Positions 1,458 through 62,419 of a DNA stretch of 64,000 bases are shown here, piece by piece. A program made the position numbers and the translations under genes. This DNA is from Adineta ricciae (lineage: Eukaryota > Rotifera > Eurotatoria > Adinetida > Adinetidae). Every line of letters begins with the position of its first letter. Positions within the stretch are counted from its first letter, which is position 1. The stretch lies in NCBI GenBank assembly GCA_905250025.1, contig CAJNOJ010000225.1, positions 1 through 64,000 of the forward strand. Direction: 5' to 3'. A model generated the notes under the pieces. It was not told the origin of the DNA. It saw only the letters and a list, made by a program, of their open reading frames with translations, and did not search any database.

Positions 1458-2350
1458 TTTTTATCGCGACGATGGACATTAACTCTGTTCGAAAATTTTT
1501 TTCTAGTTGTTTATCATTTGAAAAAGTGTACTTTTCTTTTTTTCTCATTGCAATCGAATAAATATTTGATAATCAACACTAGACACGACTTTCCTATTCA
1601 TTCGACATTTTCCCCTTCGGTATTTTTCATTTTCGATATTTTTCCTTTCGACATTTAGCATACATACCAACGGATAGGAATATGCGTCTATCAAATGATC
1701 GACTTTCTCGAGTCATTCAGTCAAGCCGTAAAGATGATAACGGTCGTCTTTAATTTGTTTCATTATTTCCATTTTCTTCATAAATAAATATACAGAAATC
1801 TGTAACCAAATTAATATATATATATATCAACAATTCTTCCGTACTTCTCATGACTTCACGAGACTTCATGGGACTTTTTGGGACTTTTGTACTTCGGAAG
1901 TATAGAAGTCCGCTTGTTCCCCCTTGATTTTTCGACATTTTTCCCTTCGACATTAATTTTCGACGTTTTGACTTTCGATCTTTTTCAATCATACCAACTA
2001 CAACCATTGTTTTAAATTATATTCCTTGTGGAATTAAAACCAGTTTGTTTCTACTCAACTTCAAACGTAATTCACTCAGAAAAATGGTCAGCGAATTCAT
2101 CCGATGACCGTTACTTGTATTGCCTGAGAAATGTCGGCAAGACAAAGTTGGAAGAAAAAATATCCAAGTTCTTAACTGAATTCTTATCTTCTTTACCTGT
2201 TTCGAGCGTAGTGAAGTGACTTTCTTTGTGAGTGTTTTTCTTATCATCTCTACTTTTTTTTCTTGTGAGAGTTTGTTTAAGAACCAACAGATAACAGAAA
2301 TATTTTTGTCCCCGAAAAGATTCAAGAATAGAACGACGTCATTTGCTGCC
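1458..2350. other. Gene-free spacer
   Basis: No convincing coding frame. It holds short degenerate repeats of the type TTTTCGACATTTTTCCCTTCGAC (near 1600-1660 and 1925-1985) and a TA run at 1815-1825. The right end leads into the promoter of the ART-TPR gene. Confidence 0.5.
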
Positions 2351-2360
2351 TATATAAAAA
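2351..2360 (+). promoter_or_regulatory. TATA box of the ART-TPR gene
   Basis: TATATAAAAA lies 66-75 nt upstream of the ATG at 2426. It makes the upstream in-frame ATG at 2216 unlikely as start, because transcription should begin near 2380. Confidence 0.5.
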
Positions 2361-2425
2361 GAGAAGCGAATTTCTTCATTTTCACAAAAAAACAAAATAC
2401 TGTGAATTTCAGTTTATTCAACAGA

Positions 2426-4720
2426 ATGTACGCACAAAAATCAAAATCAAGTTCCACGACCAGAAAGCACGGTAATCAACCGCGACAACGCATGGTTCAA
2501 AACTACCTCTTAGTTTGGGTGGATGCCAATATCGATGAAAAGAACCAAGACTGTCAGAACACTTTGACACACTTACGAAGTGTTGTCAATGATGTCAATA
2601 TATACACTCAACCAGATGCTTGCGTTCAATTCCTCAACAGCATTGGTGACGAAAAAGCTTTCGTCATCACATCGGGATCCTTAGGGCAACACTTAGTTCC
2701 CGAGATTCATGGCATTTCACAAGTGAATGCCATCTACATCTTCTGTGGCAACAAATCCAGACATGAAACCTGGACAAAGAACTGGTCAAAAGTCAAAGGT
2801 GTTCACACAAATATCAAAGAAATCTGTGAAGCACTGACCACGGGTGTTAAACAATATAATCAAGATTCCATCGCCATGAGTTTTGTTACCGTAAGAGGAG
2901 AGAGTTCCAATGCCAATCTCAATCAATTGGAACCGAGTTTTATGTACACGCAAATATTTAAGAAGATTCTCCTCGAAATGGAGCACGACAAGCAAGCAAT
3001 CAAAGACCTGACCAATTACTGTCGCCAGCGTTTTCAAGACAACATCAAAGAGCACAAGGTTATCGATGAGTTTGAAGGTAAATATCGTCCCGATAAGGCC
3101 ATTTGGTGGTATACACGCGACTGTTTTACCTTCCAAATGCTCAATCAAGCACTTCGCACTTTGGATGGCGAAGTCATTATTAACATGGGATTTTTTCTCC
3201 ATGATTTACACAAACAAATACAACAGCTACACCAAGCGCAGGTCAGTAGTTACAGACGAAAACCTTTCGTAGTCTACCGTGGACAGGGCCTATGTAAGAC
3301 AGATTTTGACCAGCTATCGAAAACTGTTGGTGGTCTTTTATCGTTCAACAACTTTTTATCCACCAGTATTAAACAAGAGAAATCTCTTGTGTTTACCTAC
3401 AGCGCTCTCGGTGATCCCGACAAGGTGGGTGTTCTGTTCGTGATCATAATTGATCCCAATATTCCTAGTACTCCATTCGCATCGATTGGGGATCTTAGTT
3501 ATTTCGAAGACGAAGCAGAAATCCTGTTTTCCATGCACAGTGTGTTTCGAGTCGGCAAAATTCGACAAGTGGGTGACAAGAATAAACTTTATTATGAGGT
3601 GCAACTTCAGTTGACTGCTGATGACGATCCACAACTGCGTGTGTTAACGGACCGTATTGAAAGCGAAGTTGGCGGGGGTACAGGATGGCAACGTTTGGGC
3701 AACTTATTGCTTAAAATCAGACAACTGGATAAAGCAGAAGAACTGTACACTACGTTACTGGGACAAACATCTAACAAGAGTGACCGAGCACTCTATTATC
3801 ATCAACTTGGCTACTTAAAAAATGCTCAAGGTGATTATAAAATGGCTATAGAATACTATGAAAAAGCACTTGAAATCTGGGAAAAAACTCTTCCTTCGAA
3901 TCACCCTGATTTGGCTACTTCGTACAACAACATCGGTACCGTGTACATGAACATGGGAGAGTATTCAAAAGCACTTTCATTCTATGAAAAAGCACTTGAA
4001 ATCTGGGAAAAAACTCTTCCTTCGAATCACCCTGATTTGGCTACTTCGTACAACTGCATCGGTACGGTGTACTATAACATGGGAGAGTATTCGAAAGCAC
4101 TTTCATTCTATGAAAAAGCACTTGAAATCTGGGAAAAAACTCTTCCTTCGAATCACCCTGATTTGGCTACTTCGTACAACAACATCGGTGCAGTGTATGA
4201 CAACATGGGAGAGTATTCGAAAGCACTTTCATTCTATGAAAAAGCACTTGAAATTAGAGAAAAAACTCTTCCTTCGAATCACCCTTCGTTGGCTAATTCG
4301 TACGACTGCATCGGTTTGGTGTACAAGAGCATGGGAGAGTATTCGAAAGCACTTTCATTCTATGAAAAAGCACTTGAAATCCAAGAAAAAACTCTTCCTT
4401 CGAATCACCCTGATTTGGCCACTTCGTACAACAACATCGGTGCGGTGCACTACAACATGGGAGAGTATTCGAAAGCACTTTCATTCTATGAAAAAGCACT
4501 TGAAATTAGAGAAAAAACTCTTCCTTCGAATCACCCTGATTTGGCTACTTCGTACAACAACATCGGTGCGGTGTACTCCAACATGGGACAGTATTCGAAA
4601 GCACTTACCTATTTCGAACGTGCTTTGGACATTTGGCAACGTGCATTACCGGCGAATCACCCTCATATAAAAACTGTAAGAGAAAGTACCGAAAAATGTA
4701 AAAGAGCAATGACAAAATAA
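2426..4720 (+). CDS. ADP-ribosyltransferase-TPR protein
   Basis: Single-exon frame of 764 aa. The N-terminal third (aa 1-210) is a family-specific region beginning around NYLLVWVDANID. The middle (aa 240-400) is an arginine-type ADP-ribosyltransferase fold with the R-S-E triad: Arg in VVYRGQG, Ser-Thr-Ser in NNFLSTS, and Glu-x-Glu in EDEAEILFSMH. So the catalytic residues are present. The C-terminus has about eight TPRs; the last six are 42-aa kinesin-light-chain-like units (YSKALSFYEKALEI, TLPSNHP). Known of the family: ART enzymes move ADP-ribose from NAD+ to proteins or guanidino groups, and TPRs bind partners. Substrate and location are not visible; there is no signal peptide from the chosen start. 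Start chosen from the TATA box at 2351; the frame is also open upstream to 2216. A second, more diverged relative lies at 21313-24102. Confidence 0.85.
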   Translation: MYAQKSKSSSTTRKHGNQPRQRMVQNYLLVWVDANIDEKNQDCQNTLTHLRSVVNDVNIYTQPDACVQFLNSIGDEKAFVITSGSLGQHLVPEIHGISQVNAIYIFCGNKSRHETWTKNWSKVKGVHTNIKEICEALTTGVKQYNQDSIAMSFVTVRGESSNANLNQLEPSFMYTQIFKKILLEMEHDKQAIKDLTNYCRQRFQDNIKEHKVIDEFEGKYRPDKAIWWYTRDCFTFQMLNQALRTLDGEVIINMGFFLHDLHKQIQQLHQAQVSSYRRKPFVVYRGQGLCKTDFDQLSKTVGGLLSFNNFLSTSIKQEKSLVFTYSALGDPDKVGVLFVIIIDPNIPSTPFASIGDLSYFEDEAEILFSMHSVFRVGKIRQVGDKNKLYYEVQLQLTADDDPQLRVLTDRIESEVGGGTGWQRLGNLLLKIRQLDKAEELYTTLLGQTSNKSDRALYYHQLGYLKNAQGDYKMAIEYYEKALEIWEKTLPSNHPDLATSYNNIGTVYMNMGEYSKALSFYEKALEIWEKTLPSNHPDLATSYNCIGTVYYNMGEYSKALSFYEKALEIWEKTLPSNHPDLATSYNNIGAVYDNMGEYSKALSFYEKALEIREKTLPSNHPSLANSYDCIGLVYKSMGEYSKALSFYEKALEIQEKTLPSNHPDLATSYNNIGAVHYNMGEYSKALSFYEKALEIREKTLPSNHPDLATSYNNIGAVYSNMGQYSKALTYFERALDIWQRALPANHPHIKTVRESTEKCKRAMTK
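3908..4663 (+). repeat. Six tandem 126-bp units encoding TPRs
   Basis: Units start at about 3908, 4034, 4160, 4286, 4412 and 4538, each beginning near GATTTGGCTACTTCGTACAA. They are nearly identical at the DNA level, including at synonymous positions. Each unit encodes one 42-aa TPR. The last unit is the most diverged. Confidence 0.9.
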
Positions 4721-8112: not shown

Positions 8113-8834
8113 CCCTCAATCGCGAAGCGATAATCAAATACTACGTAGTTGATTGATAACTATTTCAAATATGTTTCACTAAATACAGTTGCGTAACTAT
8201 CATAAGCAGAGAGCAGCAGCTGAGAAATAATAGCAGAATGATACACATTCTATGAAATCAAATTTTTGACAAGCGCCTGTTTCAATGACGAGAGAAGAGC
8301 GTTGCTTGTAAGTGAAGGATGGGAGCAATACATGATATCCCAGGCCGACCAATCCCATACCCGGATCCTATCGGTTCCGTTATCAGATTTGTCAACCTGG
8401 GATAGAACTAATGTTATTGCACGCCAAATCTATCGTTGTTGCATTACGGTCACCGGTTACTATCCTTCATCTGCGAGGGATCGGTCAGTAAAGTGTCGAC
8501 ATATAGATGTCGCGTATCGAACTCTTTTACTTTAATTTAGAACAAGAAAGAAAATGGTAAAAAATTGTTATTTTATATAAACGAATTTTCTGCCAAGTTT
8601 CAGTTCTTAACAACATGTTCCACGTCACAGTATAGAATTTAATCGATTGATGAATGCATTTTCATCTCTTATGCTCAGTTGACTGTATGAATAGAAAAGA
8701 AGGGAAAAAGCCAGTGTTCATGGTAGCATGACTCATACATGCTGGAATTTACCAAGTGCTATGTTTTCCTTCTCCATTCATGCAAGGATCAAGTTACCGC
8801 GTCATAATTCAATATTTCATTACTGGTACAAACA

Positions 8835-11800
8835 ATGCGTTTAGCACCGAACAATCGTAGAGAGGGACAATTGGAAATACGTCAATTTTTTGTGAGTAGT
8901 ATTACTCGATTCAATATGTTTGACCGTTTTTCGAGAAATTCAGTTTTCCTATGCTACAGTTAGTGGTGCGTATATGGGCGAGTCTACATACCATTTTCAA
9001 AATAGTCGCATTGAAGAATCTTCTAATTTCTAGTTTGGAAATTTAATTCTATATGAACACCCTATCTAAAGTTTCCTTTGATCCTAATATCCTGACTGGA
9101 AATTGAGAAAGTTAAAGATGTCTGAGCAATTCAGTGGATCTGATAACCAAATTCAACTTCCAAACAATCGCATCAATTCTCAGTAATATTATTACTATCT
9201 CTCATTCTGAAAGTTCTTTCATTTTTGTAAATGAAAATGTGATATTTATTTTAATTTTGGAAGAGAATGAATGATTCATCCTTCGAACAACAATGGTCTA
9301 CCTCATTTAAGCCTGCCATAGAAATCCTATTAAAAGCTCCAAAATGCTGCTCTAACGCTGTTTATAGAGAGCTGTTCCACAATGTTTTCGCAATCTTACT
9401 GCACGGATATGGAGAAAAACTGTATGGAAATATGCGTGAATTAATTCATGAATACCTTGTCAAAGAGGTACGCCATATTGATATTTTTATCGCTTATTCT
9501 TTCGTTCTGTAACAAGTTAGATCAAAACTTATTGAATCACCTTCATCAGAGTTCTTCGCTGTGTTCCAATCAACATTGGAGAAGCATGACGAAAGTATGT
9601 CATTTATTTCTAAACCTTTTCAATTCAGAGATCGGGTCAGTAAGCCACCAGAAAAGTTTGAAACAATCTATGATTTGGGTATACGATTGTTTCGAGAAAA
9701 TATCATTCTCTCTTCTAGTATACAAGAATGCTGTATAAACGCATGGCTGGAAATGACTTCTCAGGAGCAATGCGGTCGAGTTGCAGACAGGGCAATTGTA
9801 AAAGATATTTCTGAATTGTTAACAAAATTTAATGTCAACAAAGATTACATCGATCGTATAGAATCTCAAGCAATGTATTTGCAGCGTTCGGCTGAATTCT
9901 ATCCATCTGAAAGTATACGATTATTGACTGAAAATGATGCATTGGAATATATTCGAAAAGTTAAAGCGTTATTCGACGACGAAATGGATCGTGCTAATTT
10001 ATATTTTGATCAATCAATAAAACACCGTTTCGTTCAGTTATTAGTGGAAGAATTTATCAATAAACATCGAAAACATTTGGTAGAAATGGAAAAGAAGCAC
10101 ATTGGTGAAATGTTGAAAACAAACCAATATAAACAATTGGAGAACATTTATAAAGATTTTCAAGCCGTACCAGAAGGTTCATCGATTATCATCGATTGTA
10201 TTGGCGAATATATACGTCAAACTGATCTTGAAAACAAAAGCTTTCGTTATTTTGTCGAAGATTTCATTGATTTGAAAGATAAACTCGATGGATTTTTGGG
10301 GAAAATTTTTAATTTTGGTCCAGTTATCGTTCAAAATTTTGATTGTGACTTCGAATACTTGATGGAATTGAATCCAAATAGTGAAGAATATCTGGTGTCA
10401 TTTATCGATGAATATTTAGATGACGAACAAAATGATTCCATTCAAAAGTTGACAAAAGCAATTCTTCTATTACGTTTCCTGAAAATTGAAGGTCTTTTTG
10501 AACAATATTTCAGTCGTTTGAAGGAAAAATCGGTTTTCAATCAACTGTTTCAATCAAATCAATATGAAATCCTTTCAATCGTTTATAGAAATTGTCAACA
10601 AATGCCAAATGTTCGTTCTACGTTGATCGAATCAATGAGTCATAACTTACGTCAACGAGGCCAATCATCGATGACTTCATTCATGAAAGATCTTGTGGAT
10701 TTAAAACACATATCCGATGAATTTCTTATGAAATCTTTTCGTTATGATCATGAATTCGTCAAACAGAATGACTCCGATTGGAAATATCTCGTAAATTCAA
10801 ATGGATCTTTTCCTGAACATGCTTCCTTATTCATTAACGATCAAATGAAAAATAATGACGTCGAGAAAGCCGAAAAACTACTCGATAAAGCCATTCAACT
10901 TGTCGGTTATTTAAAAGAAGAAAATACTTTTCGGGAATATTATCAACAACATTTAGCAGAGCATCTTCTTTCCAATCAATCGATCTCATCAGATCTGGAA
11001 GATTATACGTTATCATTACTGAAGAAGAATTTCGGTAACTTTTTCATATCCAAATTCGAGTGTATGCTGACGGATATTGTCATTTTATCAAAATCATTGA
11101 ACGGAGATTTCCGAACTCATACAATTCAAAACAGACCCGATTTACACGGCATTGGTTTAACTGTAAACGTTCTGAAAACGGATGTTTGGCCAATTTCTCC
11201 TTTGAACAACGGATGCACTCTGCCATCAACAGTAGACGATGCCTATCGATGTTTTCAAGATTTTTATGTGAAAAAACACCCTGGTCGCCGATTAATGTTA
11301 TTGCCACAAATAGGTTCAGCAGATTTGAAATTAATGATAAATCAACGAAAATATCTTCTTCGAGTATCAACATATCAAATGACGATTTTAATGTTATTTA
11401 ACCGAAGAAACAAATGGACACTTGATGTGAGTTTGAGGACGGAGAGTGAGATATTTCATATATTTTGACATTGTAGGAAATCCTTCAGGAAACAGATATA
11501 AACAAAGATGACGTCGAAGAGGCATTAATACCATTAATTATCAATAAAAAGATCGGAAATATTCTGGTAAAACAGCCACAAAATGAAACAATTTTACCGG
11601 ATGATCAATTTCTCGTTAATGATCAGTTTATATCGGAACATATTTACGTGAAAATTCATTCATTGAATGTCAAACTGAACAAGAAATTAAGACGTGAACA
11701 TATTGAAGTCAAACTTCAACGTGAGCACGAGAACGAAATCCGTGCTGCGATTGTACGAATTATGAAATCATCTGGTACGATGGCACACAATCAGCTTGTT

Positions 11801-12040
11801 ACTCAAGTAAACGTTTGATTTCGTTACAACAATAGAAACTTTCTTTTCCATAGGTCATAGAATCATTGATATGTCGTTTTACACCAAATTCTGAGTCAAT
11901 TGAACGAGAAATAAAACGAATAATTGAAACAGAGTATATTTCACAATCGAATGATGATCGGTATGTGACACATGTTACAATTAATTCGTCTACTCTTTGT
12001 CTTTATTTGATTTAGAAAAACTTACAACTACGTTGTCTGA
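8835..12040 (+). CDS. Cullin-3-like ubiquitin ligase scaffold with an apparent internal duplication
   Basis: Six exons fit: 8835-8891, 9264-9467, about 9516-11426, 11477-11806, 11854-11960 and 12016-12040, giving about 877 aa against about 768 for animal CUL3. Landmarks: the N-terminus LEIRQFF...EILLKAP, then GYGEKLYGNMRELI; FREYYQQHLAEHLL opens the cullin homology domain; then STYQMTILMLFNRR. The C-terminus has the neddylation site IVRIMK with its lysine, a winged helix, and an RKTYNYVV end. Known role: a scaffold joining BTB adaptors to RBX1. About 10110-10540 and 10545-10960 look like two copies of the segment before the homology domain. The 9467/9516 junction is odd: coding phase needs an intron starting GT and ending AA (or TA...AG), so a one-base error or lesion is possible. 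The first exon is inferred from IRQFF aligning with the CUL3 start. Confidence 0.8.
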
Positions 12041-12564
12041 GATAGGATTCTTTTTAATCGAGAATAAAGCATATGTTCTATCTCTTTTTTTGAAGGTGAG
12101 GATGACAGTCAATAGATAACACTCAATCCAACTATTATACCAAATTTTTGTTAAAATTCAGGAATAAATATGAATGTTTACACTTCCATCATTTGTTTCG
12201 TTTTATTTATTTTTCTATTATATGAATTAATTTTATTACGCTTTTCTTTTACATTTTTCAAAACTTTTCCTATAAAAGAAAGACTCTACAGGGCGATTGA
12301 TAAATAACTCCCTATTTTAAATTCTTATAACTCTCGAACAACAAAAGCTATCATCCTGATTCTTTCACCATTCTATAGCATGGACTATGGCATTTTGTTT
12401 CATATAAAACAAATCAATTGATTGTCGGATTATATAGGATGAAACACCAAATTTGTTCAGATAATATCTGACAAGTAGCGCTCATCTGTTGGATTCGCTG
12501 ACCCTCTTCTGAAAGAATTACAAGACTCAGATAAAAACTCTAACGTATATCTCACTCTCCCAGG
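12041..12564. other. Spacer downstream of the cullin
   Basis: AT-rich, no coding frame. At 12478-12510 it holds AGCGCTCATCTGTTGGATT followed by GCTGACCCT, which matches the left arm of the hairpin repeat at 54743. Confidence 0.45.
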
Positions 12565-21312: not shown

Positions 21313-24102
21313 CTAAATATAGACCTTTAAAATATCTTCAAGGATCCGTAGATTTTCTTCGTATTCTTGCAAATCAGGATGATCGGGCGGTAATGACTTT
21401 CTTGCAGTATCCAATGCTTCTTGGTAGAAAGGTAACGCTTTTGAATATTCTCCTATATCGGTAAGTAAAGAACCAATAGTGTTTAGTTTTGTTGCTAAAT
21501 CAGGATGATTGGCGGGAAGGACAGTTCGACTGATTTCGAGATATTTCTCATAGAATTCTAGCGCTTTTGAAAAGTTTTTCATGTTATCGTATAAATCGCC
21601 AAGATTGTTGTACAGAACAGCCAAATCAGGATGATTCGATGGAAGAGATTGCTTATACACATCCAACGCTTTTTCATAGTATTCTAAAGCTTTCGAATAA
21701 TTACCTGTTCTTTCATGAATAGTTCCAATGTTGCTGTATGTACTACCGATACTTGGATGATGTGAAGGTAACGTTTCTTTCTTGATATCTAAAGCTTGAT
21801 AATAGCACTCTAATGCTTTTGGATAATCGTCCATTATATCATACATAGATCCAATGTTGTTGAGACTAATAGCCAATTCCGGATGATTCGATGGAAGAGT
21901 TTTCTTGTAAATTTCGAAAGCTTTTTGATAATATTCTAACGCTTTCGTATACTCGCCGATGTTGTCATAGGCCGAGCCCATGTTATTGTACGTTTGTGCA
22001 AAACTAGGATGATCGTGAGGAAGTAATCGCTGACGAATTGCAAGAGATTTCTCAAAAAATTCCAGCGCTTTCGAATATTCACGTAATCGATCGTAAGCCG
22101 CTCCCATGTTCCCGTAGACACTTGCTAAATCAGGATGATTATGGTTGGGATATACTTTGTAACAGATATCACGAGCTTTTTCGTAGTACTTCAGTGCTTC
22201 ACTGTAGTTCCCCATAGTGTCGAAGAGCGTAGCGATATTATTGTAAGTTGCAAAACGTTCGTGATGGTTTGGCAGAAGCGATTTTTCTTGAATTGCTAGC
22301 GTTTTCTGGTAAAATTCTAATGCGTTTGTAAGTTTTCCTGCTTTTTCATATATGATAGCAATATTTCGATGGATCACAGCTAGACTTGGATGATTTGATG
22401 GTAAAACTTTTTGTCTGATCTTCAATGACTTTTCATAAAATTCCAAAGCTTTTGAATTATCCTCCAATGAATTATACACTGTACCGATATTGTTATAGAG
22501 TGTTCCCAATGCAGGCTCATCGGGAGGAAGAGTTCTGTGATAAATTTCTGAAGTCTTCTCGTACATCGAGAGAGCTTTATAATAGTCTCCAAGTTTATAA
22601 AACACTCCACCAATATTGCTGTAACTAGAAGCCAAAGCAATATCACCTTCCGAAAACGTTTTAAGGTGCAATTCAACTGCTTCCTGATAGAGATTAAGAG
22701 CTTCCGTATAATTACCTGTACCATTTGATATCATACCCAACTGATGGTAGCAATTCGCCAATCCTTCATAATTATCGCTCGATAGTGAGCCCATCAACGT
22801 TAAATACACTTCCTTAGCTTCACTGAAATGTCCCACTTGGATGAGCAGTTGTCCCAACCGACTCCATCCTGTACTTCCTGCTGTCTCTTTTTCGAGCTGT
22901 TCTCCGAGTACTTGCAGGTCGCGATCTTCGTCATTCGTTAACACGAGTTTCACTCGCCAAAGAACATCGTCCACCTGCTCCATACTTTCAATTCGAAACA
23001 CACTGTGCATCGAAAACAACACTTCACCCTCGGAATCCTCATAGTAACTCATACTGCTCACCAGAGCAAACGGCGTCGACTTCACCGCTTGATTAATCTT
23101 CATTACGAACAGCACAGGAACTGTATCCGGATCCTGTGGAGGTATCGGACAGAACGTGAGAGCTGTTTCTCTTTCTACACTCGTTGACGTAAATGCATTG
23201 AACGACAACAGACCACCCACACTTTTACGAATATTCTCGAACTCACTTTTCACGACGCCCTGTCCTCGATATAACACTCCAGGACTCCAAACTGCAGACT
23301 GAAATGTATAGAGTTCGTTGAGTTGTTGATGCAGATCGTACAAAAAGAAGCTCATTTTGATGATGATTTTACTGTCCATGAGTCGAAGAGCTTGATTGAG
23401 CATTTGGAAAAGAAAACAGCCTCTTGTGTACCACCGAATCGCTGAGTCAGGCTTATAGTTTTGTTCGAATTCGTCAACAATGCTTAGTTGGACTGGCTCA
23501 GTTTGATATTGCTCACGCAGAAACTGAACAAATCGTTCTTTTGTGTGTAGATGACGATCGATATCGAACAAGATTTGTTTGAGCAATCGAGAATACATGA
23601 ATAATGGCTCCAGTTCATTGAGATCGTATTTTGAACAGTCGGCGGGTGAGATGACACTGATTGGAACTGAGTCATGATCATATTGTTTTGTTTTTTGATT
23701 GATCGATTGACAGATGTTAGCAATGGTACGAAAATATCCTTTCAATTTAGGTGTAACGTCGTTGAGTTGTTGAGAAGGTGGTATAGTATCATTGCAGAGA
23801 ACATAAATGGAATAGATTTGAGGTATGTCGTGAACGAGAGGGATGAGCTGTTGTGCGAGTGGATATTGTAGTATGATGAATACTTTGGTATGTTGTAAAT
23901 CTGTGCAAAAATCGATGCATTGGTCAGAATCGTTGTGTAGCTCGACGGTATCTATTATTTTTGATGTTTGTGTGAGTAAATATTTATATTCATCGTTATC
24001 TACATTCATATTCGGATCCAACCAGAGAAGAGCAATATTTCGAAGAACACGACGGCATCGAATAGGTCGTACAATTCTGGTTTCATCCTCTATGCAATTC
24101 AT
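21313..24102 (-). CDS. ADP-ribosyltransferase-TPR protein, long form
   Basis: Single-exon minus-strand frame, 929 aa from the chosen ATG at 24102. The frame is open to 24219, but the added 39 residues are not shared with the relative at 2426, where the family block begins soon after the start (here NIALLWLDPNMN). The ART domain keeps the triad: VLYRGQG, NAFTSTS and EDSEGEVLFSMH. About twelve TPRs follow, eleven of the 42-aa kinesin-light-chain type. Unlike the gene at 2426, these repeats differ clearly from each other, so they are older. Inferred role: NAD+-dependent ADP-ribosylation with partner choice by the TPR tail. The target is unknown. Confidence 0.85.
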   Translation of the reverse strand: MNCIEDETRIVRPIRCRRVLRNIALLWLDPNMNVDNDEYKYLLTQTSKIIDTVELHNDSDQCIDFCTDLQHTKVFIILQYPLAQQLIPLVHDIPQIYSIYVLCNDTIPPSQQLNDVTPKLKGYFRTIANICQSINQKTKQYDHDSVPISVISPADCSKYDLNELEPLFMYSRLLKQILFDIDRHLHTKERFVQFLREQYQTEPVQLSIVDEFEQNYKPDSAIRWYTRGCFLFQMLNQALRLMDSKIIIKMSFFLYDLHQQLNELYTFQSAVWSPGVLYRGQGVVKSEFENIRKSVGGLLSFNAFTSTSVERETALTFCPIPPQDPDTVPVLFVMKINQAVKSTPFALVSSMSYYEDSEGEVLFSMHSVFRIESMEQVDDVLWRVKLVLTNDEDRDLQVLGEQLEKETAGSTGWSRLGQLLIQVGHFSEAKEVYLTLMGSLSSDNYEGLANCYHQLGMISNGTGNYTEALNLYQEAVELHLKTFSEGDIALASSYSNIGGVFYKLGDYYKALSMYEKTSEIYHRTLPPDEPALGTLYNNIGTVYNSLEDNSKALEFYEKSLKIRQKVLPSNHPSLAVIHRNIAIIYEKAGKLTNALEFYQKTLAIQEKSLLPNHHERFATYNNIATLFDTMGNYSEALKYYEKARDICYKVYPNHNHPDLASVYGNMGAAYDRLREYSKALEFFEKSLAIRQRLLPHDHPSFAQTYNNMGSAYDNIGEYTKALEYYQKAFEIYKKTLPSNHPELAISLNNIGSMYDIMDDYPKALECYYQALDIKKETLPSHHPSIGSTYSNIGTIHERTGNYSKALEYYEKALDVYKQSLPSNHPDLAVLYNNLGDLYDNMKNFSKALEFYEKYLEISRTVLPANHPDLATKLNTIGSLLTDIGEYSKALPFYQEALDTARKSLPPDHPDLQEYEENLRILEDILKVYI

Positions 24103-24586
24103 TCGTAAAACTTTCTGCGTCTGATGAATGCAAAAAAGCGAAACCAATGCAAAGTTTACAGCTAATCTACAGGAAAGAAAAACGAATGCTTTTTTTTCGT
24201 CTTCCTTTTCTGATACCATAAAAAAACTTTTTGAAGGAGAGAACAGATCAACCGTCGTAGTTAGTAAGTTGGAAAAAGCCTACTGTTGTCGAAGCCATTC
24301 TGCTCTTACTCTCAGACATCATATTTCGTTTAGAACAATATGTGTAATAGAAAAATTGATGACATTGTCAGAATTTCATTTTTTCCATTGCCTGTTCTAT
24401 TCTGGATGATTTCAATCTTTGATCAAGTTTCTTAGTATCTATTTGTTGTAACAATATAATGAGTCATGAAAAGCCGGGTTATAAAATCATGCAAAAGAAC
24501 AAATATGTATTTGAATTGGTATTGCGTTCGATTACAATCTATACGTTTTGATCTTTTTGTCAATTCAAAAATGCTGATTTTATTCC

Positions 24587-27761: not shown

Positions 27762-28667
27762 AACGGGAAAGACATATTTGAAAAAATCTCTCTCGAAGAA
27801 TTACTTGCTGTTGTGCAACACAAGATGAATGTAGTTGATGGTGCGATAATTGATCAAGAATGTGCTTCACTTCTCAAACAATCTGATATCAATCAACTAA
27901 ATCAATTTCTTGATGTTGTTACGATTCAACTAACGAAATCTTCATCAATGACAAGCGACTACAATCTCATCAACAAAATCGTTTTAACTTTGATTACCGT
28001 TGATACTAAACAACTATTTAAACAGCGTCAACTTATTCAACATCAACTCTTGGTTATTCTTCGAGATTATTTAGTTAAACTATTATTCGAACAGGATCAA
28101 ATTGCCTTAGTTAATAACTTATCAATTTTTTTCCATGATATTTGTTCTTCTACTCTTGTGGGTAATGGGATTGATAAACTCATGATTTATACACCTTTGG
28201 TAAACAAAATCTGCGTATTCTTTAATGAGATCGAAAACTATGCTCGAGAAAGTCAACAAATTGAAATAATCAATCGTTTAATGCTGATTTATCAAAACAT
28301 GCAAATGACTCGTTTGGATACACGAGATGACTCAACTTTAGAAGTTTTATTTCTGAATATTTCTACATGTTTTTCTTCAAAGTTTTTTCTTCAAGCCCTT
28401 CAAGCTTTATCAACAAATCTACCAAATTTGAACAGTCTTCTCTTCGACACATCTGTCGAATTTCTGTATTGGCAACCTTATGAAGATAGTCTGTCACGAA
28501 AAAACAGTCTATTTACCATTTACAAGGTATTGGTAGGTACAACTGCCGATTTACTATCATCTCCACCACCGATTGAACCCATTGTGCGACTTGCTCGTCT
28601 ACTTGCCTTGTTGGTTATGGTTACTGATGGCACAGTTGATGATAAAGATTATTATAATCTTATTGAT
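27762..28667 (+). pseudogene. 5' copy of the ARM-TIR-SAM gene, cut at an N
   Basis: After a possible acceptor AG at 27760-27761 the frame reads NGKDIFEKISLEELLAVVQ and continues as the same helical-repeat region found at 30475. Only about 300 codons are present before the N at 28668, where the sequence jumps back to the end of the pentapeptide gene. It differs from the second copy by scattered substitutions (for example DDST versus GDGST), so it is an allele or homologous copy and not a repeated read. No TIR domain is present here because the contig ends. Confidence 0.7.
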
Positions 28668-28668
28668 N
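28668..28668. other. Single-N assembly join
   Basis: The sequence after it restarts at the equivalent of 25829, giving a 2.7-2.8 kb repeat of the locus. Confidence 0.9.
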
Positions 28669-28956
28669 ACTTGTTCACAGGACAAATCAAGCGAAGCGTG
28701 GATTAAATTAGCTTTTCTGAAAAACAATTATCTATGGATAGATTCACATAAAGGTAAACAATTGTGAAGAGATTATTTGTGAAAGAAAAGTTAGATATTT
28801 TTAGTTCACACGAATCAAGTAAAACCACGAAATATATTTGCGACAACTGGGAATATACCAAGTTATACTCGATTTATTCGAGTTGAACTTCATGCGTATA
28901 TCGGAGAGAGTTATGCACGTTGTGTTTTTGATAATCTTCGGTTGAGAATATTTTGA
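28669..28956 (+). pseudogene. 3' copy of the pentapeptide-repeat gene
   Basis: It begins in the middle of the second coding exon (TCSQDKSSEAW), keeps the same last intron and ends at the equivalent stop at 28954-28956. It differs from 25829-26116 at several positions. It starts directly after the N at 28668, so it is a contig end, not a separate gene. Confidence 0.8.
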
Positions 28957-30474: not shown

Positions 30475-33300
30475 AACGGGAAAGACACATTTGAAAAAAT
30501 CTCTCTCGAAGAATTACTTGCTGTTGTGCAACACAAGATGAATGTAGTTGATAGTGCGATAATTGATCAAGAATGTGCTTCGCTTCTCAAACAATCGGAT
30601 ATCGATCAACTAAACCAATTTCTTGATGTTGTTACGATTCAACTAACGAAATCTTCATCAATGACAAGCGACTACAATCTCATCAACAAAATCGTTTCAA
30701 CTCTGATTACCGTTGATACTAAACAACTATTCAAACAGCGTCAACTTATTCAACATCAACTCTTGATTATTCTTCGAGATTATTTAGTTAAATTATTATT
30801 CGAACAGGAACAAATTGCCTTAGTTAATAACATATCAATTTTCTTCCATAATATTTGTTCTTCTACTCTTGTGGGTAATGGAATTGATAAACTCATGATT
30901 TATACACCTTTAGTAAACAAAATCTGCACATTCTTTAATGAGATCGAAAACTATGCTCGAGAAAGTCAACAAATTGAAATAATCAATCATTTAATGCTGA
31001 TTTATCAAAACATACAAATGACTCGTTTGGATACAGGAGATGGCTCAACTTTAGAAGTTTTATTTCTGAATATTTCTACATGTTTTTCTTCAAAGTTTTT
31101 TCTTGAAGCACTTCAAGCTTTATCAACAAATCTACCAAATTTGAACAGTCTTCTCTTCGACACATCTGTCGAATTTCTGTATTGGCAACCTTATGAAGAT
31201 AGTCTGTCACGACGAAACTGTCTATTTACGATCTACAAGGTATTGGTAGGTACAACTGCCGATTTACTATCATCTCCACCACCGATTGAACCCATTGTGC
31301 GACTTGCTCGTCTACTTGCCTTGTTGGTTATGGTTACTGATGGCACAGTTGATGATAAAGATTATTATAATCTCATTGATCATTCAATTTCAATGCTTGA
31401 TCTCGATACAAATGCTACAACAAAACGATTGCTTCTTAATACTTTATGCCATTTNTACAAGGTATTGGTAGGTACAACTGCCGATTTACTATCATCTCCA
31501 CCACCGATTGAACCCATTGTGCGACTTGCTCGTCTACTTGCCTTGTTGGTTATGGTTACTGATGGCACAGTTGATGATAAAGATTATTATAATCTCATTG
31601 ATCATTCAATTTCAATGCTTGATCTCGATACAAATGCTACAACAAAACGATTGCTTCTTAATACTTTATGCCATTTAACATATAACATCGACATGACAAT
31701 ACATATGAAGAACAATTCCTCGCTAAAAGCATCACTAGTAAAATTGAGTGAATCTGAGGATTCGGAAATATCTTTCGATGCATATCGTATTTTAGCTGTG
31801 ATTATGAATGAAGATGATATTAAAGCACTGACGAATACAAGTAAAATTGTTGCGATATTTTATCTGTATTTTATTAGTATGATGAATGATCCAATTCAGA
31901 AAACTGCTTTTCATAGTTTACTTCATAGCCTAAAAAGTAAGTTCTGTTCTGTATTACAAAGGAATATTCAAATCTTTCTGTTAAATGGTTTAGGTTTAGT
32001 ACAACACGATCAGGTTAAAAAGGAACTAATTGAAAAAGATTTCGTTCCATTGCTTATTCAATGTGCAGTGGAAACAAGTTCGATCAAAATTCAACAATGT
32101 GCATTGGAAATTCTACTTTCGCTTTCTTTTTACAAAGACACTTTGAATATGCTAGAGCAAGATACGAAATTTATGACTACGCTAAAAACGCTAAACACCT
32201 CAAGTGAACTGAGCATACAGCGAACCGTTAACCATTTACTTTGGCAATTCGAACAAAAGAACAAAACACTCGTTTCGTCATCGAGTTCCACTTGTAATAT
32301 TATGCTGAGCTATTCACATAATGATAAAAATCTATGCTTTCAAATATACGATCATCTCGTCAAAGATGGATATAATGTCTGGCTTGATCGAGATCAAATG
32401 CATGGAGATACAATGACAGCGATGGCAAATGCTATCGAAAAATCAGAATTTGTCATCATCTGTATGTCGGAAGCATATAAACAAAGTCCGTACTGTCAGG
32501 CGGAAGCACATTATGCATTCGAACGACGTCGAAAGTTGATTCCGTTGGTAATGAAGTCAAAATATAAACCCGATGGATGGTTGGGAATAATTGTTAGTNT
32601 CTGGCTTGATCGAGATCAAATGCATGGAGATACAATGACAGCGATGGCAAATGCTATCGAAAAATCAGAATTTGTCATCATCTGTATGTCGGAAGCATAT
32701 AAACAAAGTCCGTACTGTCAGGCTGAAGCACATTATGCATTCGAACGACGTCGAAAATTGATTCCGCTGGTAATGAAGTCAAAATATAAACCCGATGGAT
32801 GGCTGGGAATAATTGTTAGTGGAAAGATTTACGTAGATTTCACTAAACATCAATTCGATCTAGCTTGTTCAATGCTTAAAACTGAAATCGAAAAGAAACA
32901 GCAAACTGAAAGCATCGCTTCTAAGCCATTAGCAAAAACAACAACTGATTTATCTGCTCCATGTACGTCATCAATAGTTCCTATGAAACTACCACATTGT
33001 ATCGATGTCTGGTCTGCAGATCATGTTCGTTCATTTCTTGTTGCTAACAATTTCACATCACTTTTACCCGTTTTCACTGATTTTAATGGTCAATTGTTAC
33101 ATCAAGCATATATCATGTGCCAACTAAATCGAGAAACTATGTTTCATTCAATGAAGAGCGAAGTCGCAACGTGTGAACATGTTGCGCCACTAACACTCGG
33201 TACTTATCTTCATTTTCTCAATGCCTTGAAGCAGTATATTCCAATATCTAACAGTGATACTGCACAAACACCAGCGTCGATGATTTGCAGTGTTATGTGA
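30475..33300 (+). CDS. Helical-repeat (ARM-like)-TIR-SAM protein
   Basis: The frame begins NGKDIFEKIS after a possible acceptor; the first ATG in it is at 30538. It runs to TGA at 33298-33300. Order: about 580 residues of ARM/HEAT-like helices; a TIR domain (IMLSYSHND, then YNVWLDRDQMHGD, then EFVIICMSEAY, then YCQAEAHYAFERRRKLIPLV, then GWLG...YVDF); a linker; and a SAM-like domain (DVWSADHVRSFLVANNF to LHFLNALKQYI). The Glu in CQAEA sits where NAD+-cleaving TIRs such as SARM1 have their catalytic Glu. SARM1 uses the same modules in the order ARM-SAM-SAM-TIR. Two 221-nt segments are repeated after the Ns at 31455 and 32599; 221+1 is divisible by three, so the frame stays open. The true protein is probably about 775-790 aa. 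Confidence 0.75.
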   Translation, partial: NGKDTFEKISLEELLAVVQHKMNVVDSAIIDQECASLLKQSDIDQLNQFLDVVTIQLTKSSSMTSDYNLINKIVSTLITVDTKQLFKQRQLIQHQLLIILRDYLVKLLFEQEQIALVNNISIFFHNICSSTLVGNGIDKLMIYTPLVNKICTFFNEIENYARESQQIEIINHLMLIYQNIQMTRLDTGDGSTLEVLFLNISTCFSSKFFLEALQALSTNLPNLNSLLFDTSVEFLYWQPYEDSLSRRNCLFTIYKVLVGTTADLLSSPPPIEPIVRLARLLALLVMVTDGTVDDKDYYNLIDHSISMLDLDTNATTKRLLLNTLCHXYKVLVGTTADLLSSPPPIEPIVRLARLLALLVMVTDGTVDDKDYYNLIDHSISMLDLDTNATTKRLLLNTLCHLTYNIDMTIHMKNNSSLKASLVKLSESEDSEISFDAYRILAVIMNEDDIKALTNTSKIVAIFYLYFISMMNDPIQKTAFHSLLHSLKSKFCSVLQRNIQIFLLNGLGLVQHDQVKKELIEKDFVPLLIQCAVETSSIKIQQCALEILLSLSFYKDTLNMLEQDTKFMTTLKTLNTSSELSIQRTVNHLLWQFEQKNKTLVSSSSSTCNIMLSYSHNDKNLCFQIYDHLVKDGYNVWLDRDQMHGDTMTAMANAIEKSEFVIICMSEAYKQSPYCQAEAHYAFERRRKLIPLVMKSKYKPDGWLGIIVSXWLDRDQMHGDTMTAMANAIEKSEFVIICMSEAYKQSPYCQAEAHYAFERRRKLIPLVMKSKYKPDGWLGIIVSGKIYVDFTKHQFDLACSMLKTEIEKKQQTESIASKPLAKTTTDLSAPCTSSIVPMKLPHCIDVWSADHVRSFLVANNFTSLLPVFTDFNGQLLHQAYIMCQLNRETMFHSMKSEVATCEHVAPLTLGTYLHFLNALKQYIPISNSDTAQTPASMICSVM
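31455..31455. other. Single-N assembly join
   Basis: 31456 onward repeats 31234-31454 (221 nt) without visible difference, inside the helical-repeat region of the TIR gene. Confidence 0.95.
32599..32599. other. Single-N assembly join
   Basis: 32600-32820 repeats 32378-32598 (221 nt) with about three differences, inside the TIR domain. Confidence 0.95.
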
Positions 33301-34065
33301 ATTCAAGCGTCGAGTTTTTTCCTCAGTCTTGTAGAACATTGTTTGTTCTATTCCTGTATGAGAATTTCTTTTATTGATTAACAAAGCACTAAGAAACAAC
33401 AGGTAGGAAATACGGTGAAACGTACTCCATCATTGCTTTTTCTCAGAAAAATATACAATGCGAGAACGATATAACAAAGAGGCTTCCATTAAGAGAAAAG
33501 AAATATAAAATTCAACAGAGAACTTCCATATACTCGCATATCGTGATCGATCAGACGGTATCATTTTCCTTTCGCGACACTGAAAATGAGTCTCTTTCGA
33601 TGAATTATATTTGCTGTTACCGATAGCCATAGATGACATTATTAGAGTTTCCAGTTTTCTTCACTCATATATCGTTTTCATAGTGAAATCAGTGCTTGCA
33701 TTAGAATGTGCTACGTACGTATTTACTTTTCCAACGGTTCTCTGAGCAATCCAACAGTATTTTGATGTATCATTCTATTCATCGATATAACGTGAAATAA
33801 GAACATTCACAAATCAACAATCATGGAATCCAAATGTACAAAGTGTTATGCTCTTCAATTTTCACAACTACTTTGTATTCATCATTTCTATTTAAACCAA
33901 ATGATTGACGTCGCTTTTCAATGACGTGATCTCGCGAAATTGCATCGTCAATCAAACCTTCATGAGAAAATCCTATGACAAGATGACGTAGCATTTTCAG
34001 ACCGCCAACAAAAATATCGACGAGTGGTACAGTGCAATCAAGTGAGTATACATCAGTTTCGATAT
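33301..34065. other. 3' flank of the TIR gene with F-box gene 3' exon on the minus strand
   Basis: No separate gene at 33301-33820. From 34065 down to about 33831 the minus strand encodes the last part of the F-box protein (CTVPLVDIFVGGLKMLRHL to LYIWIP), the counterpart of 35310-35560. The block is repeated at 34768-35560 with small indels. Confidence 0.65.
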
Positions 34066-34066
34066 N
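34066..34066. other. Single-N assembly join
   Basis: The sequence jumps from the F-box 3' exon back to the TIR domain (equivalent of 32378). Confidence 0.9.
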
Positions 34067-34767
34067 TCTGGCTTGATCGAGATCAAATGCATGGAGATAC
34101 AATGACAGCGATGGCAAATGCTATCGAAAAATCAGAATTTGTCATCATCTGTATGTCGGAAGCATATAAACAAAGTCCGTACTGTCAAGCGGAAGCACAT
34201 TATGCATTCGAACGACGTCGAAAGTTGATTCCGTTGGTAATGAAGTCAAAATATAAACCCGATGGATGGTTGGGAATAATTGTTAGTGGAAAGATTTACG
34301 TAGATTTCACTAAACATCAATTCGATCTAGCTTGTTCAATGCTTAAAACTGAAATCGAAAAGAAACAACAAACTGAAAGTATCGCTTCTAAGCCATTAGC
34401 AAAAACAACAACTGATTTATCTGCTCTATGTACGTCATCAATAGTTCCTATGGAACTACCACATTGTATCGATGTCTGGTCTGCAGATCATGTTCGTTCA
34501 TTTCTTGTTGCTAACAATTTCACATCACTTTTACCCGTCTTCACTGATTTTAATGGTCAATTGTTACATCAAGCATATGCCATGTGCCAACTAAATCGAG
34601 AAACTATGTTTCATTCAATGAAGAACGAAGTGGCAACGTGTGAACATGTTCTGCCACTAACACTCGGTACTTATCTTCATTTTCTCAATGCATTGAAGCA
34701 GTATATTCCAATATCTAACAGTGATACTGCACAAACACCAGCGTCGATGATTTGCAGTGTTATGTAA
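34067..34767 (+). pseudogene. 3' copy of the TIR-SAM gene
   Basis: It starts within the TIR domain (WLDRDQMHGD) directly after the N at 34066 and runs to TAA at 34765-34767. It carries the Glu of CQAEA and the whole SAM-like domain, with a few replacements against 32600-33300 (for example ELPHC for KLPHC, NEVATCEHVLP for SEVATCEHVAP). It is a contig-start copy, probably an allele. Confidence 0.8.
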
Positions 34768-57431: not shown

Positions 57432-58755
57432 ATGAATATTCGCGCAATTTTGTCGTTATTAATCTTTGTACTAGTGAAAGCCAAAGATTCGGGCAGTTTC
57501 ATCCATCCTGGATTACTGCACAGTTCAAGTGATCTTCTGCGCATGAGATCAATGGTGACTGGTGAAAGGGAACCATGGAACACGGCATTTTTGTCTTTTG
57601 CAGCTGATAGCCACTCATCATTGTCTTATTCCATTCAAGGTCCAGATACCATTGTCACGCGCGATCGAAAAATGTCTAATGTCGGGAACAACCATCTCGC
57701 ACATGATTCAGTGGCGGCGTTACAGTTAGCATTGATGTACTCCATTACTAGTAACGTATCCTATGCAGCACTAGCAACTAGAATCCTGGTATCGTGGACG
57801 AACACATTGACCATTATCAATGGTACGTAACTTCCTATCTGCATTTGCATTGATTGTATAAAATAAATTGTTAATCTAGGTTCGGATGCACAACTTGCAG
57901 CTGCTCTATCAGGCACACAACTAGTTAATGCTGCCGAAATCATACGTTATACATATTCTGGATGGTCTTCTGAAGATATTTTCAAGTTCGAAAACATGCT
58001 CGTGAACATCTTCTATCCACCTACAAGTCAGACAACTCCAACCCTGGAGCAACAGTATCCATTGTAAGCATTATTTTTCGCTGAAAATCAATTGATTCGT
58101 TTATTAATGAGTATTCACTTTTCTTTTAGTGAAGCTAATTGGGGCACAAGCGGTGAGAAAGCAATTATTGCTTTCGGAATTTTTCTCAATAATCGAACGA
58201 TGTATCAGTATGGAAAAAGTCTTATCAACAGTTCCAAGTGTGCAAACTTGACTGGTACAATCAATCCCGAAGGTCAAGCATCAGAATCAGGAAGAGATCA
58301 GGCGCATACACAACTCGGTATAGGAAACCTAGGAGAAGCCTTCCAAATGGCATGGAACCAAGGCGAAGACTTGTTTTCACTTGTTGATAATCGTTTATTA
58401 GCTGGCTTTGAATACACAGCAAAATACAATCTTGGTTACACGGTTCCTTACAATGAGAGCTTCTATCGATGCGACGCTTTCCTAGTTGGCGGACCCTGGC
58501 CAATCATTTCAAACACCACTCGTGGTATGTGGCGTCCTATCTGGGAACTTCCGTATGCTCACTATGGTTCGATTAAAGGTTTATCAATGCCATTTACTCT
58601 CCAGCAAGTAAGTTTTTGGCAATTAAAACCAACAGGACACTTTTCACTTTTAATAGATCAAACGCAATTCTCCTGATGGACCTAATCCCGCCAATGCGAT
58701 CGCGGACAATGCGGCCTGGGAGACTTTACGCTTTCGTCTCGATCCAACCCTGTAA
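57432..58755 (+). CDS. Alginate-lyase-like secreted protein, copy 1
   Basis: Four exons, 57432-57822, 57880-58063, 58130-58607 and 58657-58755, join in phase to 383 aa. A signal peptide is visible (MNIRAILSLLIFVLVKA). The mature part starts SFIHPGLLHSSSDLLRMRSM, then NNHLAHDSVAALQLALMYSI, EANWGTSGEKAI, ESGRDQAHTQLG and NRLLAGFEYTAKYNLG. These blocks are typical of the all-helical alginate-lyase fold (Pfam Alginate_lyase) in bacteria and fungi, which cleaves uronic-acid polysaccharides by beta-elimination. Substrate here is unknown; exoenzyme or digestive use is inferred. The introns show it is a settled nuclear gene if it was acquired by transfer. Copy 2 at 61094 has the same structure. Confidence 0.8.
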
Positions 58756-61093: not shown

Positions 61094-62419
61094 ATGAATA
61101 TTCATGCAATTTTGTCGTTATTAATCTTTGTACTGGTGAAAGCCAAAGATTCGGACAGTTTCATCCATCCTGGATTACTGCACAGTTCAACTGATCTTCT
61201 GCGCATGAGATCAATGGTGACTGCTGAAAGGGAACCATGGAACACGGCATTTTTGTCTTTTGCAGCTGATAGCCACTCATCATTGTCTTATTCCATTCAA
61301 GGTCCAGATACCATTGTCACGCGCGATCGAAAAATGTCTAATGCCGGGAACAACCATCTCGCACATGATTCAGTGGCGGCGTTACAGTTAGCATTGATGT
61401 ACTCCATTACTAGTAACGTCTCCTATGCAGCACTAGCAACTAGAATCCTGGTATCGTGGACGAACACATTGGCCATTATCAATGGTACGTAACTTCCTAT
61501 AATCTGCATTTGCATTGATTGTATAAAATAAATTGTTAATCTAGGTTCGGATGCGCAACTTGCAGCTGCTTTATCAGGCACACAACTAGTTAATGCTGCC
61601 GAAATCATACGTTATACATATCCCGGATGGTCTTCTGAAGATATTTTCAAGTTCGAAAACATGATCGTGAACATCTTCTATCCACCTGCAAGTCAGACGA
61701 CTCCAACCCCGGAGCAACAGTATCCATTGTAAGCATTATTTTTCGCTGAAAATCAAGTGATTCGTTTATTAATGAGTATTCACTTTTTTTTAGTGAAGCT
61801 AATTGGGGCACAAGCGGTGAGAAAGCAATTATTGCTTTCGGGATTTTTCTCAATAATCGAACGATGTATCAGTATGGAAAAAGTCTTATCAACAGTTCCA
61901 AGTGTGCAAACTTGACTGGTACAATCAATCCCGAAGGTCAAGCGTCAGAATCAGGAAGAGATCAAGCGCATACACAACTCGGTCTGGGTAACCTAGGAGA
62001 AGCCTTCCAAATGGCATGGAACCAAGGCGAAGACTTATTTTCACTTGTTGATAATCGTTTATTAGCTGGCTTTGAATACACAGCAAAATACAATCTTGGT
62101 TACACGGTTCCTTACAACGAGAGCTTCTATCGATGCGACGCTTTCCTAGTTGGCGGACCCTGGCCAATTATATCAAACACCACTCGTGGTATGTGGCGTC
62201 CTATCTGGGAACTTCCGTATGCTCACTATGGTTCGATTAAGGGTTTATCAATGCCATTTACTCTCCAGCAAGTAAGTTTTTGGCAATTGAGATCAACAGG
62301 ACACTTTTCACTTTGAATAGATCAAACGCAATTCTCCTGATGGACCTAATCCTGCCAGCGCGATCGCGGACAATGCCGCCTGGGAGACTTTACGCTTTCG
62401 TCTCGATCCAGCCCTGTAA
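61094..62419 (+). CDS. Alginate-lyase-like secreted protein, copy 2
   Basis: Exons 61094-61484, 61545-61728, 61794-62271 and 62321-62419, with the same exon lengths as copy 1 (391, 184, 478 and 99 nt); 383 aa and fully open. Replacements are few (for example GLGNLGE for GIGNLGE, DSDSF for DSGSF). The first two introns differ by an indel of 3-4 nt. Signal peptide MNIHAILSLLIFVLVKA and all family blocks are retained. Whether this is a second gene or the other allele depends on the join at 60168. Confidence 0.8.

Follow-up and report, generated by a model that had tools for sequence, protein, structure and literature searches.

A divergent CUL3-like gene of the bdelloid rotifer Adineta ricciae with an internally duplicated stalk segment

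A CUL3-like gene of the bdelloid rotifer Adineta ricciae raises two linked questions: whether a part of the cullin stalk is present twice within one protein and, if so, whether the lengthened protein serves as a scaffold or is on its way to decay. The gene lies in the window analysed here, a stretch of 64,000 nucleotides (C225:1-64000) with a GC content of 0.31-0.42 per 2 kb, taken from an assembly of 130.5 Mb in 1033 contigs. It was modelled at 8835-12040 on the + strand, with six exons (all coordinates below are on this strand unless marked) and a product of 865 aa.

Comparison of the gene model with the ordinary CUL3 gene of the same genome (contig C61) and with a paralog on contig C255 places the N-terminal assembly (NA) motif of CUL3 in exon 1 (MRLAPNNRREGQLEIRQFF, 8835-8891). 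The motif reads QLEIRQFF in the window gene, KMKIRQFF in C255 and KMRIRQFF in C61 (KKMRIRQFF with the preceding residue); the window and C61 versions differ at three of eight positions, and IRQFF is kept in both the window and C255. Exon 2 (9264-9467), aligned with C255 and C61, encodes the first part of cullin repeat 1 (CR1), including the BTB-facing helix H2, and is followed by intron 2, modelled at 9468-9551 with its acceptor, CAGAG^TTC, at 9551/9552. The intronless exon 3 (9552-11426) then covers the rest of CR1, CR2, the two copies discussed below (a and b), the four-helix bundle and part of the cullin homology domain; it is included in an open frame of 651 codons without a stop (9513-11468; Pfam Cullin, E 1.6e-104). 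Exon 4 (11477-11806) completes the cullin homology domain and carries the neddylation motif IVRIMKSSG, with the lysine at position 809 of the model; both this domain and the lysine (IVRIMK) are retained. Exon 5 (11854-11960) encodes the Cullin_Nedd8 (winged-helix B) domain and exon 6 (12016-12040) the C-terminal KTYNYVV and the stop; the canonical C61 protein ends in KMYSYVA. Apart from the intron 2 acceptor, the splice sites are sound, as is the last exon. The whole modelled protein matches Pfam Cullin PF00888 (E 8.3e-121) and Cullin_Nedd8 PF10557 (E 1.5e-18).

Several other features of the window were recorded. Two closely similar ORFs, at 58068-58673 and 61750-62316, the first of which matches alginate lyase PF05426 (E 4e-6), are possibly foreign genes; foreign genes are common in bdelloids. 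A TIR-domain ORF at 30475-33297 is accompanied by partial copies at 27762-28706 and 33979-34767, with unreadable residues at the joints, and these repeats likely arose by local duplication or through a problem in the assembly. Tetratricopeptide repeats occur in long ORFs at 2180-4717 and, on the - strand, at 21316-24279, the former also matching ADP-ribosyltransferase PF03496 (E 3.5e-8). The telomere pattern TGTGGG was uninformative as a bdelloid mark, the pattern and its backward control matching about equally often (14 and 30 against 12 and 26).

The original prediction, that this is a CUL3-like protein, agrees with the structural databases, since the best PDB matches of the exon-3 protein are human CUL3 entries (8h34, 4ap2, 4hxi). 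In a phmmer search of the PDB, CUL3 (3.4e-81) was followed, far below, by the CUL4A/CUL4B family (CUL4A, 1.3e-44), then by CUL1 (1.2e-28) and APC2 (2.6e-5). The gene resembles CUL3 in its NA motif, cullin homology domain, Cullin_Nedd8 domain and neddylation lysine, and its introns 1, 2 and last three fall at the same places as in canonical C61; a loop of C61 (human about 561-583) is missing. The predicted excess of about 110 aa over CUL3 was roughly right: the model is 96 residues longer than the 769 aa of the C61 protein, assuming that intron 2 is spliced to the in-frame acceptor at 9551/9552. Exon 1, the loss of the ancestral intron 2 acceptor and the existence of paralogs had all been absent from that first reading.

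The duplicated segment consists of copy a (10107-10532; 142 aa, model residues 273-414) and, immediately downstream, copy b (10533-10970; 146 aa, model residues 415-560). As had been proposed, the two adjacent stretches align to the same part of CUL3: copy a matches human CUL3 287-434 (E 1.3e-14) and copy b matches 288-453 (E 1.3e-23; 288 to about 441 for the copy itself, 453 being reached with flank). They also align significantly with each other, one of the checks by which the prediction was to be judged (BLASTP, 42/139 identical, E 9e-20), with a local score of 180 against a mean of 31.3 and a maximum of 47 in 300 shuffles. The resemblance that cullin repeats share in general was considered as the source of this match and rejected, since the controls stay inside the shuffle range: CR3 of ordinary CUL3 scores 34 against its own N-terminus (shuffles, mean 33.4, maximum 56), and copy a scores 40 against what remains of its protein on the N-terminal side and 40 on the C-terminal side (maxima 56 and 48). 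For copy b the corresponding scores are 54 and 29 (maxima 66 and 63), the 54 lying about 3.8 s.d. above its mean yet below the shuffle maximum. At the DNA level, an ungapped repeat finder applied to 9200-12100 detected nothing repeated over more than 23 nt, from which it follows that the duplication is old. The internal duplication is certainly real, as well as old. Because both copies lie in the one uninterrupted frame at 9513-11468, losing one of them by splicing would require an intron within it.

The repeated unit had been equated with cullin repeat 3, which it does cover; it is not CR3 alone, as it also reaches into the beginning of the C-terminal domain. The construct in which the N-terminal domain of CUL3 was crystallised is described as residues 20-381 (PMC3616122), and since it ends at 381, the unit amounts to most of CR3 together with some 50 residues from the C-terminal domain. 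The CR3-containing segment is thereby present twice, a departure from the CUL3-type N-terminal domain with its exactly three cullin repeats, and the extra copy may fold as a fourth repeat. The conjecture that the unit corresponds to a single structural period of the stalk gained no support: in a comparison of the helices before repeat 3 with the first helices of the four-helix bundle, the hhalign score (10.7) fell within 60 column shuffles (mean 9.6, maximum 16.9).

Searched with the window exon-3 protein, the genome gave 30 matches, the gene itself included. The C255 paralog (about 33.9-36.7 kb) has a complete frame of 861 aa that is 41% identical to the window gene over exon 3, with five introns bounded by GT and AG; its copy a aligns to human CUL3 287-430 (E 3.7e-9) and its copy b to 302-454 (E 3e-17). 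A 3' fragment lies on the same contig at C255:53.9-54.4 kb. Contig C144 carries three broken copies, at about 73-75 (L033), 101 (L050) and 111 kb (L044/L047), about 67-69% identical to the window gene and with 5, 6 and 5 stops within the compared stretches, some of them common; that all three are broken suggests that the family decays often. The copy at 73-75 kb carries both segments, and the 111-kb copy ends abruptly beside a tandem repeat. The remaining matches include canonical CUL3 genes on C61, C69 and C20, 50-77% identical to human by piece, and more distant cullins. Since no other copy exceeds about 70% identity, the assembly shows no allelic version of the window gene. Among ORFs of at least 80 aa at the five loci tested, none is shared in the flanks of the window and paralog genes, and short blastn matches lie just upstream of the gene, at 8194-8334 with L050 and at 8812-8951 (exon 1) with L044/L047/L048. 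In viral contigs and prokaryote genome contigs, no relative was confirmed among 330, 7 and 170 pattern matches.

To relate the copies, a CR3 tree was built from 12 sequences: three each of copies a and b, the human one, three canonical rotifer-type and two CUL4-like ones, the third C144 copy being omitted. The a copies group together (93/93), as do the b copies (99/97) and all six (98/97); the place of the six relative to human CUL3 and the canonical CUL3 genes of the genome is an open fork, and both C255 rows are long branches. AU tests reject a pairing of the two window copies (p 5e-107) and of the two C255 copies (p 0.004), so that a separate duplication in each paralog is rejected by tree and tests alike. 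As a copies group with a copies and b copies with b copies, one duplication predates the split of these genes, and the simplest account of the sequences would be a single event in the paralog line before its copies separated.

The intron pattern gives some indication of how these genes may have arisen. Canonical C61 (L038) has eleven introns as modelled, of which the duplicated genes (L031 and the window gene, 9552-11426) retain five, two at the start and three at the end, without the six in the middle; the duplicated segment sits inside the resulting intronless stretch. Exon duplication at existing introns was rejected because the C61 introns in the region do not coincide with the ends of the unit, and it is also disfavoured by the absence of the six middle introns from the duplicated genes. 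The pattern suggests partial cDNA conversion, which would have been followed or accompanied by duplication of the segment. One of the canonical genes shows a twin exon of its own: in L034 (C69), the exon SAVKNACQMLMNLGID...QQSAEFYR occurs tandemly twice (2763-2882 and 2985-3104), as against once in C20 (L035), perhaps as a mutually exclusive pair or a recent exon duplication.

Whether the long frame has been maintained was assessed from substitution rates. Over 624 codons, the window and C255 genes differ with a dS of 0.96 and a dN of 0.445, giving a dN/dS of 0.46 (95% 0.36-0.59); by part, the ratio is 0.46 before the copies, 0.32 in copy a (0.15-0.58), 0.69 in copy b (0.44-1.09) and 0.43 in the C-terminal part. 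For the C144 copy at 73-75 kb, compared over 560 codons, it is 0.37 (0.29-0.48), with 0.29 in copy a and 0.33 in copy b. Constraint is clear for copy a, while for copy b the comparison with C255 includes neutrality and that with C144 excludes it. The ratios against the 101-kb copy, the third C144 copy and the C255 fragment are 0.50, 0.56 and 0.65, respectively. Ordinary CUL3 (C61 versus C69, 733 codons) has a dN/dS of 0.065; a ratio about seven times higher, the doubled 287-434 segment and the six missing middle introns are among the features that set the window gene apart from CUL3 and C61. Nonsynonymous and synonymous changes number 65:47 on the window lineage and 71:38 on that of the broken C144 gene, against a neutral expectation of 3.03:1; the two lineages are indistinguishable (Fisher p 0.33), although the C144 copy is broken. 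Both dN/dS and lineage counts below neutrality indicate that the protein has been under selection, and the window frame has therefore been constrained, though weakly and far less than ordinary CUL3.

Two features of the window gene bear on its present state. The ancestral acceptor of intron 2 is lost: its position reads ACAA^GTT, as in the C144 copy L047, against ACAG^GTT in the C144 copy L050 and an AG acceptor followed by GTT or GTC in the canonical genes (L034, L038). For the ancestral donor, the nearest in-frame acceptor is the one used in the model, CAGAG^TTC at 9551, which removes 12 residues; another in-frame GT-AG pair is 9436/9516. The second feature is the BTB-side face of repeat 1, scored at Leu52, Phe54, Leu57 and Ile122 as named in PMC11074293. 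Of these four residues, the window gene keeps one, C255 two and C61 all four. When positions 55, 58, 62, 119, 121, 125 and 128 are added, which we take to belong to the same face, 3 of 11 residues (seven of the positions thus being presumed) are identical to human in the window gene, 9 of 11 in C255 and 11 of 11 in C61. The window gene retains L57, I119 and R128 (the last within an alignment anchor) and has a proline at 122; C255 departs from human only by L52D and I122V. With its BTB face apparently changed and its acceptor lost, the window gene either splices through another in-frame site or is beginning to decay. On sequence grounds, C255 is likely the better, working example of a duplicated-type scaffold, and the window gene may be failing or changing partner.

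The alternative that survives best takes up the darker side of these observations: the window gene would be a recent or incipient pseudogene, in which the duplication has no present function, while perhaps being functional in C255. We regard this as a serious but doubtful reading, one that falls short of an even chance. The acceptor loss common to the window gene and the broken L047, the apparently altered BTB face, the raised dN/dS with lineage counts like those of a broken gene, and the three broken relatives on C144 all speak for it. Against it, 651 codons have stayed free of stops at a dS of about 0.5 from the broken C144 copy, when 5.1% of random single changes create a stop; the splice sites elsewhere and the last exon are in order, the 65/47 ratio on the window lineage is well under 3.03, and alternative in-frame GT-AG pairs exist (e.g., 9468/9551 and 9436/9516). 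It is rather improbable that the gene encodes a dominant-negative or regulatory cullin, which would keep one binding end (RBX1/NEDD8 or BTB) and, its longer arm making it a poor ligase, titrate partners. Its rapid evolution alongside slow canonical CUL3 genes would suit such a role, as would the changed CR1 contacts combined with retained cullin homology and neddylation domains, but C255 keeps 9 of 11 repeat-1 positions and the NA motif, as a working scaffold should. Finally, an artefact of assembly or gene model (a chimeric contig, or two genes read as one) is rejected, as copies a and b share one open frame, the same order recurs on the independent C255 (41% over exon 3) and C144 (about 67-69%) copies, and there is no recent DNA repeat able to be mis-joined.

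The window gene is a divergent CUL3 paralog whose single in-frame tandem duplication predates the window-C255 split; the reading that we favour, and to which we give about an even chance, is that its product is an elongated CUL3-type scaffold with altered geometry. The N-terminal stalk of CUL3 is described as three five-helix repeats, BTB proteins being bound by repeat 1 together with the N-terminal extension (PMC4668279, PMC11074293). Internal duplication of the equivalent of human CUL3 287 to about 434 would repeat part of this rod in frame, and copy a would pack on copy b roughly as repeat 3 packs on the C-terminal domain. Human CUL3 residues 342 and 346 were mutated to R and D, stabilising the isolated N-terminal domain (PMC3616122); the corresponding positions are hydrophobic in all six of the aligned paralog copies (the broken C144 gene contributing two), which fits such a packing. 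If the copies stack, the rod from the N-terminal adaptor end to the RBX1 end would become longer or bent, and the resulting CRL3 scaffold would present the ubiquitin-loaded E2 to the BTB-held substrate in a different position. RBX1-like and BACK-domain genes are present in the genome, with 35 BACK matches and 75 for zf-rbx1; three of the latter have E <1e-16, and the others may belong to different RING proteins. The further step, that a working long-stalk CUL3 has been retained, is more tentative and somewhat less probable than not; it would give this bdelloid a second CRL3 class, with a rod longer by about one repeat and a new distance and angle at the catalytic end.

The known atypical members among cullins and cullin-domain proteins, CUL7/CUL9 (PARC) and APC2, also deviate from the usual architecture (PMC2785787, PMC11257990). 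Among the open-access papers searched, none was found to describe a cullin in which the CR3 segment is repeated. To our knowledge, CUL7/CUL9 and APC2 have gained or lost domains and show no such repeat. The function of cullin ligases is considered to rest on the geometry that relates the substrate receptor to the RING end, the classic rigidity argument being that for CUL1. Strict geometric conditions are also described for CUL2 ligases (PMC10997478). A duplicated-stalk cullin kept open in two diverged paralogs would let this geometry be tested in a protein that evolution has accepted and, if the reading is true, the long-stalk CUL3 of A. ricciae would be a natural experiment on how much change in cullin geometry is tolerable.
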